From Acidobacteriaceae bacterium (GTDB lineage Bacteria > Acidobacteriota > Terriglobia > Terriglobales > Acidobacteriaceae), in assembly GCA_003151155.1 (NCBI GenBank), contig PLWX01000072.1, forward strand, positions 14,483 through 78,482: 64,000 bases of DNA, given 5' to 3'. Position numbers and translations under genes: made by a program. The notes beneath the pieces are model-generated. The model ran no database searches. It was not told where the DNA came from and saw only the letters and a list, made by a program, of their open reading frames with translations. Shown in pieces: positions 14,749 to 18,409 of this stretch (position 1 is the first letter of the stretch; every line of letters starts with the position of its first letter).

Positions 14749-15213
14749 CTGAAGCGGCAATCGATCATTCCGCAGTAAATCCGCGTGTGCTCCTGTGATG
14801 GATGGAGCGAGTCTTTGTCTATGCGGGGAATGGCGTTGCAGGGGTTACTCATTCGTACTGGGTTCCCCTCCCACACCCCTCTGTAGGTTCAGTAGCTTAT
14901 CGAAACCTCGCAAAATATTCCAGCCAAAGAAGTTATAGGCAAAATATTCAAAAATAAAGGGTTAGAGGTTATTTCGTCGCAGCCGCGGGATTTACCCCGC
15001 TGTCGGGGTCGTTACAAGAAGAGAAAGAGCGGTGGATGATTCATGATGGTGTCCCACGCGAATGCATTAAAGTCCTGCGCTGTCACGAAGTCTGTCCCAC
15101 CGGGGTGTGTCCGACACCCACAAAAGTTCATGAAAGAGACTGTGTATTCAATAGAAGCTGCGGTCCCGCGGGCGCTCTTTCTGATTGACGATGGCCGGCA
15201 CGCATGTGCTTCA

Positions 15214-16773
15214 ATGGCACGCATGATGCTGCGTGTGGGGATGTTGCTAGCGGTCCTGGTTGGGGCGGGAGGGCAGGAGCTGCCTGCCACTGTAGCCGGC
15301 CAACTCGATGGACGGGAAAAGCAGTTAGAGAGCTTGTACGCCGACTATTGGCGCACAGAGTACAAGATTGCTTTAGGCGACCATGCTCTTTCGTCGAGGC
15401 CCATCCAGGAGCAGATCCGGACGGTGGTGTCGGATGAAAGGTTCCTCGCCAATCTCAGGAATGCGAAGTTTTCCGATTCGCTGTTGAAGAAGCGGCAGAA
15501 GCTGTATCTCAACGAGGCCGTTTACACCAAGATCACGAACGATCCGGCGCTGACCGCGGTGGTGGAGCAGATCACTCAGAACGAGAACGGCTTCCGCTTC
15601 AAAGTGGGCGACCGCCAACTTTCACGAGCCGAGGTGACGGACTTACTGGAGCACAATCCGGACCGACAGTTGCGGGAGGAAGCCTGGCGCGCAACGAGCC
15701 AGATCACGGGCGTGAATGGCGCCCGAATTCAAAAGGCGATTCAGCTTCGTAACCAGCTTGCGGTGAAGAACTCGGACGAAATATTTTCCATCTTTCTGTT
15801 GCATCGGAAGGGACTCGAAGTAGAGCAGGTGTTCGATTGGTTCGATCAGATTAAGGAACAGACGGAGCCGGAGTACCAGCGATTGCTGAAACGGATGCGC
15901 AATGAACTGGGCGTTGCCAAGATCGAGCCGTGGGACCTCGATTTCTTTTTCTCGAAGGCGACCAACGACTTTGAAGCGCAGAAGTTTCCGACCGACGACG
16001 GGTGGAAGGAAACGAAGGAACTTGCGGCAAGCCTGGGATACGACCTTGATCCGGTGGAAATGCATGTTGCCGACCTGGGCTTTGGAGGGGCGGCGTATCC
16101 AATTCTGTATGGAAAAGAGGTAAAGATCCTGGCGAACCGATACTCGGGGATCTTTTTCTATGATCGCTTATGGCACGCGACCGGGCATGCATTGCATTAC
16201 CAGATGGTGAATGAGCCATCGTTTCTTTTGCGCGCCAACTACGCGGAACCGATGGATGAAGGGATGGCGCAAGTGATGGCGCTGTTGTTGTACCGTTCCG
16301 AGGTGAACGCGAAACTGTTTACGCTGACACCGGAGCAGGCGAGCGTAGTAGATGCGGCGTACCGGTTGAAGCTGCTGTACACGGTGCGGAACACGATCGC
16401 GGATTCGCTTTCCGAGTTTGAGTCGTATTCCGATCCGGAGAAGGATCCGGCGTCGGTCTATAACCGCATTCACGCGGAGTATCTGGGAGTGGATATGCAC
16501 GATGCCCCGGTGTGGGGGTTCAATCCGATGTATGGTTCCGATCCGATCTATCTGCAAAGTTTTGTTGTAGGCGAGATGGTGGCGCGCCAGATCGAACACA
16601 AGGTAGATGAGAAGTTTGGGCGGAATTGGGGAAAACCCGCTGGGGACTATTTAAGAACGAACTTTTATTCGCGTGGAGCTGAACAGAGTGTTGACGGCTT
16701 TATGCGCGGCGGAACTGGCGAAGCGCTGACGCCGCGGTACTTAGTGCAGTTCCTGGAAAGTTCGAAGAATTGA
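15214..16773 (+). CDS. Exported M2/M3-like metallopeptidase homologue with HATGH in place of HExxH
   Basis: Signal peptide (MARMMLRVGMLLAVLVGAGG); RLWHATGHALHYQMV...MDEGMAQVMA keeps the gluzincin spacing between the second His and the distal Glu. Confidence 0.75.
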   Translation: MARMMLRVGMLLAVLVGAGGQELPATVAGQLDGREKQLESLYADYWRTEYKIALGDHALSSRPIQEQIRTVVSDERFLANLRNAKFSDSLLKKRQKLYLNEAVYTKITNDPALTAVVEQITQNENGFRFKVGDRQLSRAEVTDLLEHNPDRQLREEAWRATSQITGVNGARIQKAIQLRNQLAVKNSDEIFSIFLLHRKGLEVEQVFDWFDQIKEQTEPEYQRLLKRMRNELGVAKIEPWDLDFFFSKATNDFEAQKFPTDDGWKETKELAASLGYDLDPVEMHVADLGFGGAAYPILYGKEVKILANRYSGIFFYDRLWHATGHALHYQMVNEPSFLLRANYAEPMDEGMAQVMALLLYRSEVNAKLFTLTPEQASVVDAAYRLKLLYTVRNTIADSLSEFESYSDPEKDPASVYNRIHAEYLGVDMHDAPVWGFNPMYGSDPIYLQSFVVGEMVARQIEHKVDEKFGRNWGKPAGDYLRTNFYSRGAEQSVDGFMRGGTGEALTPRYLVQFLESSKN

Positions 16774-16821: not shown

Positions 16822-17580
16822 CTAAGCGAGTTTTGCGTCCGGCGGAGGGATGGAGGCCGTGATCCACGAGACGCCGATCATGGCAAGCGCGACGAAGCCG
16901 CTGGTCCATTCGTCGGGGTTGTGCGGCGATGCGGCGATTCGCGGCAAATGCGTAGTGACGACGAAGACCAGGAACATGGTGCCGAGCAGGATCGACGCGA
17001 GACGGAATTGAACGCCGCTGGCGATGGCGAGGGCAGCCGCGAAAAAGGCACCGCCCACAAATTCAGCCCAGAAGAAATGAGCGGGAATCCAAGCGGGGAC
17101 CAACGTCGCGACGAAATGGGCATAGCGAAAATGCGCGATGCCGAAATCGATGAGCGCCAACACCAGCAAAAGGCGTGGGATCAACACGGAGAGGTGCGGA
17201 TACGCTTGACCGCGACGAACCGGCGGAGTGCTGGCTAACAGCAATGCGGCGGCACACATCGAGAGCAGTTCGCAGGCGCCGATCCACTGGTTGGGATCGT
17301 CGGGGTGGGCGAGGATGGGCGATATATGAAACATCGCGATGTTGGCGAGCAGGAGGGCCGCCAGGAAAGCGCCAGCATGTCGCGTGGAGCGATCGAAAAG
17401 GATAGCGGCGCTGAAGAGCACGAGGAGGCCTCCGATCAGACCGACGATGAAGGGGCTCGCCGGCGTCCACGGTGGGGAGGGGCGTGGTCCAAGGGAAAAG
17501 GCATACAGCAGGTGCTGGATTCCGAAGCAGGCGATCGCGAAGGCGAAAAGCGTGCGAGCGAGTTTCGCCAAAGATGTCAT
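16822..17580 (-). CDS. Multi-pass membrane protein, DoxX-like
   Basis: 252 aa, about 7 hydrophobic segments; family assignment tentative. Confidence 0.5.
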   Translation of the reverse strand: MTSLAKLARTLFAFAIACFGIQHLLYAFSLGPRPSPPWTPASPFIVGLIGGLLVLFSAAILFDRSTRHAGAFLAALLLANIAMFHISPILAHPDDPNQWIGACELLSMCAAALLLASTPPVRRGQAYPHLSVLIPRLLLVLALIDFGIAHFRYAHFVATLVPAWIPAHFFWAEFVGGAFFAAALAIASGVQFRLASILLGTMFLVFVVTTHLPRIAASPHNPDEWTSGFVALAMIGVSWITASIPPPDAKLA

Positions 17581-17698: not shown

Positions 17699-18409
17699 AT
17701 GGCCTACAAGGGCAAGATTGAATTTGCGCACGAACGCAGGATTCGCGAGCGCAACACCACGGTTTATCGCATTTGCCACCTGCCGATCTGGATCTGGGTA
17801 TTTTTCCTGGCCCCCGGACCGCTGACGTTCAGCCTCTTCGCACATGGCTTCAACCGCCTGAATGGGCTGTGGCTGGGAGTTGTGCTTGTCTGCGTTTGCG
17901 TGGCCGGATATTTTGCGCAGCTGCCTGGCTGCGAACATGGCCCTTACATTATCCGGTTCGACGAGGATAAACGGAATCCGCTGTACCGGAAGATTTGCTA
18001 CACCTTTGCCTGGAATGCGGCGATCAACTTCGCGCTGCTGAACCTGGTAGGAACGATCATCGCCGTGGCGACCGGCGTTTGGTATATGAAACAGATCTAC
18101 CAGTACGCCTATTTTCCGATCCTGCTCATCGTGCTGGTGCTCGCTGCTTTGGGCCTGCTCCCCCGAGTGGGACGGTCCACAAAGCGAGAAGGGATCGAGC
18201 GACGCTACTTCTACGGGACCGTGTGGTCGGTGACGATTGCACAGACCGCGGTCTTAACTTTGTGGAAGACCCTGCCGAGGACTCCGACGACCAACGTGGT
18301 GAAATTGGTCGTGTATCTGGCGGTCCTTGCATTCATGGGAGTCCTGGCCGTGCGCGGCGTTTTGCCGCGAACCCGTCCGATTCTGCCGGGGGAGACGATC
18401 GCGGAGTGA
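17699..18409 (+). CDS. Multi-pass membrane protein of unknown function
   Basis: 236 aa, several hydrophobic segments, no recognised motif. Confidence 0.6.
   Translation: MAYKGKIEFAHERRIRERNTTVYRICHLPIWIWVFFLAPGPLTFSLFAHGFNRLNGLWLGVVLVCVCVAGYFAQLPGCEHGPYIIRFDEDKRNPLYRKICYTFAWNAAINFALLNLVGTIIAVATGVWYMKQIYQYAYFPILLIVLVLAALGLLPRVGRSTKREGIERRYFYGTVWSVTIAQTAVLTLWKTLPRTPTTNVVKLVVYLAVLAFMGVLAVRGVLPRTRPILPGETIAE

Follow-up and report, generated by a model that had tools for sequence, protein, structure and literature searches.

The gene and its predicted product

The window, by which we mean the whole 64,000-nucleotide stretch of DNA analysed here, carries a gene whose product resembles the M2 and M3 metallopeptidases and in which the HExxH motif is degenerate (Table 1). 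Its frame is intact from the ATG at 15214 to the stop codon at 16771-16773. The open frame itself begins further up, at 15043; we prefer the start at 15214 because homology sets in near 15214-15226, as does the signal peptide. The N-terminus, MARMMLRVGMLLAVLVGAGGQ, reads as a positively charged segment followed by a hydrophobic stretch and by small residues ahead of a likely cleavage site, and export of the protein is probable. This agrees with a preliminary description of the locus, which had reported an intact reading frame with a signal peptide. The gene is present in single copy in the 336-contig assembly of the window's genome. A promoter scan at the gene gave no site, and the two terminator-like sites that were found both lie inside it and are no more than chance would give.

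Table 1. Positions of the gene, its landmarks and two adjacent reading frames in the window.
Feature	Position	Strand	Remarks
Probable pseudopeptidase gene of the M2/M3 group, 519 aa, product probably exported	15214..16773	+	open frame; full-length homology to 13 relatives; AF2 mean pLDDT 93.3
Probable Sec signal peptide	15214..15276	+	sequence reading; similar N-termini in homologues
Two strands ahead of the zinc helix, residues 291-308	16084..16137	+	clade-fixed T294A, V307A
HATGH, degenerate HExxH (His321-Ala322-Thr-Gly-His325)	16174..16188	+	CAC GCG ACC GGG CAT
Glu349, presumed third zinc ligand, in MDEGMAQ	16258..16260	+	24 residues past His325; invariant in 18 sequences
Active-site loop MYGSDPIYLQSF, residues 439-450	16528..16563	+	
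Neighbouring ORF, membrane-protein-like	16822..17580	-	no Pfam match
Neighbouring ORF, membrane-protein-like	17699..18409	+	no Pfam match

On the upstream side the genes can be read as leuB, leuC and leuD (the last matching Aconitase_C), followed farther away by an HMGL-like synthase; on the downstream side come a convergent ORF, a second ORF and a lactate permease. When the neighbours of the HATGH clade were compared across genera, no conserved neighbour or operon partner was found. Neighbours were shared only between two genomes of genus g65 and among some genomes with the HExGH form, and the window had none in common with the other genome of its genus within the stretch compared. The gene probably stands alone.

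The AF2 model of the protein (pTM 0.91) matched neurolysin, thimet oligopeptidase, ACE and M32 structures in a Foldseek search of the PDB (E 1e-11 to 1e-9), and its best TM-scores were to testis ACE (0.81). A model of the sister protein L020, which has the HE form of the motif, was of equal quality and matched the same structures. Part of the protein scores above the Pfam cut-off for M3 (PF01432, 36.3 bits against 27) and part above that for M32 (PF02074, 27.0 against 25.1), with the M3 match present in all 18 aligned members, and the NCBIfam subfamily models fall far below their cut-offs (TIGR02289, 35.7 against 442 bits; pepF TIGR00181, 14.6 against 491). We therefore place the protein, on its predicted structure, in the M2/M3/M32 fold group (clan MA), with a mostly helical clam-shell; Pfam, profile and fold searches all bear out the M2/M3-like kinship first proposed for it.

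No single family accounts for all of its features. Like ACE and the bacterial M2 enzymes, it has the fold, the HxxxH motif with a Glu 24 residues on, and a profile alignment that runs through FLLR...E; unlike them, it has Ala for the general-base Glu and no His at positions 291 and 439, and a distinct M2 gene, with HELGH, is present elsewhere in its genome. The M3 enzymes (neurolysin, thimet oligopeptidase, PepF) share the Pfam match, the top Foldseek matches and a profile match to 2h1j, but only the N-terminal part of our protein matches the M3 model, the Glu is gone and the protein is probably exported. With M32 (BsuCP, 3hq2), the C-terminal part aligns by Pfam and phmmer and the fold matches, whereas HATGH replaces HExxH and the HES of the distal Glu is MDEG.

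Conservation and ancestry of the HATGH motif

The codons in Table 1 confirm the H-A-T-G-H reading of the preliminary description, which had placed the motif at 16171-16185, three bases off. In an alignment of 18 sequences, His321, Gly324, His325, Glu349, Glu401, Trp434, Pro444 and Tyr446 are among the invariant residues. The protein has therefore retained the zinc ligands His, His and Glu (His321, His325 and Glu349), and it is probably occupied by zinc, judging by these residues. Both His had been described as kept and the distal Glu as lying at an ACE-like spacing, and both points hold; the same 24-residue spacing occurs in the genuine ACE-type M2 protein of this genome (L069; HELGH...HEAIGD). 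That M2 gene (L069/L070, positions 4469-6087 of contig C194 in the window's genome, G000) is apparently broken into two frames.

The general-base Glu is replaced by Ala in all six members of a clade found in six species-level genomes, the window's included, whose four genera all fall in the same family of Terriglobia (Acidobacteriota). Carriers other than the window are L007 (JAIQFP010000002.1, a Terriglobia metagenome assembly) and the whole genomes G001, G015, G073, G128 and G072; L007 and the G073 copy, which agree in their scores and in the length of their contig, are apparently one gene and were counted once. By comparison, HEAGH or HESGH is found in all eight sisters (the HE group), which come from seven further genera of the family, and HExGH in all four outgroup sequences, which are more distant members of the phylum. 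The Ala codons of the six members are GCG, GCC, GCT, GCC, GCC and GCC. The codon thus varies synonymously while Ala stays. A sequencing error at the GCG codon is rejected, since HATGH recurs in five other genomes, where the Ala codons differ synonymously. Besides the soil bacterium of the window, five or more relatives have Ala322, which is more than chance.

In the tree, a branch sets the HATGH sequences apart from all others with a support of 100/100 (99/100 without the longest outgroups), and a position inside the HE group was not separated from one beside it (AU p 0.33). Since the outgroups carry Glu, the simplest reading of these sequences is that Glu was lost once and that Ala has been kept since the common ancestor of the clade.

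Within genus g65, the pair of HATGH genomes (L007/L016) gave a dN/dS of 0.134 (NG86) and 0.104 (YN00), compared to 0.121 and 0.091 for an HE pair at similar distance; these values are limited to comparable pairs, the more distant ones being saturated at synonymous sites and left out. Purifying selection on the clade is strong, and the HATGHALH region is unchanged across the four genera. The preliminary description had allowed that all homologues might carry HETGH. Instead, all five other close homologues carry HATGH, and the alignment gives a conserved motif in a monophyletic clade with the zinc ligands kept, the frame intact and purifying selection at work.

Among 398 genomes drawn from the family, 14 carry the HATGH or the HExGH form and none carries both. 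A draw of 399 genomes from the class gave only six matches, all within the same family. No relative of the protein was found in the viral contigs searched, and the plasmid search returned one distant M2 protein (22% identity), in Priestia. The HATGH gene of G072 (L022, 1468-3043, minus strand) reads as two overlapping frames split near residue 120, which may be a frameshift or an assembly fault.

Changes around the zinc site

Eighty-two columns of the alignment are constant within both groups, and seven differ between HATGH and HE: 278, 283, 288, 294, 307, 322 and 352. All seven clade-fixed differences, Ala322 among them, fall around the zinc site in a stretch of 75 residues (278-352) that holds its strands and two helices. 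In a permutation test on the span of the seven columns, for which the stretch was not chosen beforehand, random draws of seven were equally tight in 0.012% of trials (p = 0.00012).

Other changes are older than the loss of Glu. At position 291 (Gly or Ala) and position 439 (Met, Leu or Phe), a His is found in three of the four outgroups. From the surrounding motif (HASAWD in genuine M2 proteins) and the loop, we take these two positions to be the extra active-site His of ACE, His353 and His513. The eight HE sisters (L004, L019, L005, L020, L021, L023, L024 and L025) also have neither His, indicating that this Terriglobia group was altered before Glu was lost and making the activity of the HE sisters themselves uncertain.

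In the window protein, the active-site loop has Met439 at the position of the outgroup His, the invariant Tyr446, and Phe450 where other sequences have Tyr. Position 450 (16561-16563) is Tyr in 16 of the 18 sequences, the exceptions being the window (Phe) and its congener L002 (Leu). By position, Tyr450 is presumably the transition-state Tyr of ACE (Tyr523) and thimet oligopeptidase (Tyr612). Another catalytic residue may thus have been lost in the window's genus only, which is consistent with a relaxed catalytic demand. The earlier statement that nothing but the general-base Glu is missing therefore oversimplifies: the two His are absent group-wide, and Tyr450 is gone in the window's genus.

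Possible roles of the HATGH proteins

Working from the sequence and its conservation, the single origin, the purifying selection, the fold, the retained zinc ligands and the fixed changes round the site, all of which are directly supported, we infer a loss of catalysis, zinc occupancy and a working function. With a probability of roughly two in three, the protein is an exported, folded and probably zinc-loaded member of the M2/M3/M32 group that no longer hydrolyses peptides efficiently and is likely to bind them without cutting. The Glu that activates the zinc-bound water would have been Ala since the ancestor of the clade, with the loss of efficient peptide hydrolysis. Outside the cytoplasm, the clam-shell cleft and the zinc would then hold peptide tails or short peptides and leave them uncut, and the working role would be that of a capture, sequestering or sensing protein. 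Peptide capture is our best guess, made on the strength of the predicted fold, the export and the retained zinc site. The term pseudopeptidase, used as probable in the preliminary description, is well supported by the conserved loss of the catalytic residue in intact, selected genes, from which the loss of catalysis itself would follow. The binding or regulatory role suggested there stays tentative, since neither an active family partner nor a conserved neighbour was found.

In zinc peptidases, loss of this Glu lowers activity and does not always abolish it. A residue other than Glu could act as the base, such as Asp443 of the loop, and the protein would then still be a hydrolase whose site was rebuilt rather than lost. 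The loop before Tyr446, which corresponds to the His-loop of M2 and M3 enzymes, reads YGSDP in all HATGH members, with Ser442 and Asp443 fixed in 6/6, whereas the HE sisters have YSTGP, YASQP, YAAIP or YFAVP and thus Gly, Gln, Ile or Val at 443; the other fixed changes ring the active site, and Tyr446 is kept. However, the PepF-type M3 enzyme 2h1j has TDP at the place of Asp443 together with an intact HExxH, so that Asp443 by itself is no sign of a new base and its case as one specific to Glu-less proteins is weakened. Given also that Tyr450 is gone in two members, we regard a rebuilt hydrolase as unlikely. A scheme that spans both readings, in which hydrolysis was lost stepwise (the two His, then Glu, then Tyr in one genus) and the site was rebuilt round the zinc for peptide capture or for zinc chemistry based on Asp443, is tentative and stands at somewhat less than even odds.

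A protein that captures or buffers zinc outside the cytoplasm would also be exported, keep invariant zinc ligands and dispense with the Glu. The fungal zincophore Pra1, in which HRxxH replaces HExxH (Glu to Arg), provides the precedent: it has no protease activity, captures zinc, is needed for growth at low zinc and probably arose from an HExxH protease through loss of the Glu (PMC3386192, PMC12663325). Ecm14, whose general base is Lys, likewise has no detectable protease activity (PMC11266112). The HATGH proteins resemble both in their peptidase fold, in zinc-binding residues that are kept or re-used and in a replaced general base, but the families (M35 and M14) are unrelated. Furthermore, the zinc transporter/receptor gene that is syntenic with Pra1 was not seen at the HATGH locus, and a comparison of the neighbours, part of which were annotated, gave none conserved across genera, which speaks against a consistently linked zinc transporter. 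Because a protein of this length with a cleft and Tyr446 also exceeds what zinc capture needs, we consider this role quite improbable.

The protein could conceivably serve as a pseudo-subunit, joined within the cell to an active M2 or M3 relative whose activity it regulates. Genuine M2 proteins with HELGH are encoded in the window's genome, G001 and G072, intact in the latter two, and ordinary M3 proteins with HExGH in G015, G072 and G128; an M2 search of G015, G073 and G128 found none. An active paralog as the partner is rejected, since the HATGH and HExGH versions of the family occur together in none of the genomes searched, and G073 gave no match to any other M3, M2 or M32 protein. With no shared neighbourhood either, we give this arrangement very little credence. 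Gene decay, that is, an ortholog drifting without its Glu, would fit the split G072 copy and the lost Tyr450, but it is highly improbable and already largely refuted by the dN/dS of about 0.1 within one genus, the five of six members that are intact and the HATGHALH region.

Precedents for the pseudopeptidase reading also include C. elegans ACN-1 and the Drosophila proteins ANCE-2, -4 and -5 (PMC1325048). These proteins are from animals, without established orthology to the bacterial group, and ACN-1 is described as having no metallopeptidase active site, whereas the window protein keeps the zinc ligands. A review of pseudo-metallopeptidases gives cases in M1, M12, M13, M14, M15, M16, M24 and M41; its introductory table and sections 3.4 and 4 contain none from M2, M3 or M32, and the word 'angiotensin' is absent from the text. 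A full-text search of the open-access literature found no description of a bacterial M3/M2 group that has HATGH or lacks the Glu. The HATGH clade would add a variant from bacteria to a kind of pseudo-metallopeptidase that is already known, and can be compared with ACN-1 and ANCE-2, -4 and -5.

The well-described pseudo-metallopeptidases are mostly eukaryotic. The protein also carries a warning for annotation, as it lies above curated peptidase cut-offs, so that a pipeline would take it for an active peptidase. Because sister genera of bacteria have closely related HExGH and HATGH forms, never together in the genomes searched, the same protein can be compared before and after the loss of its Glu.
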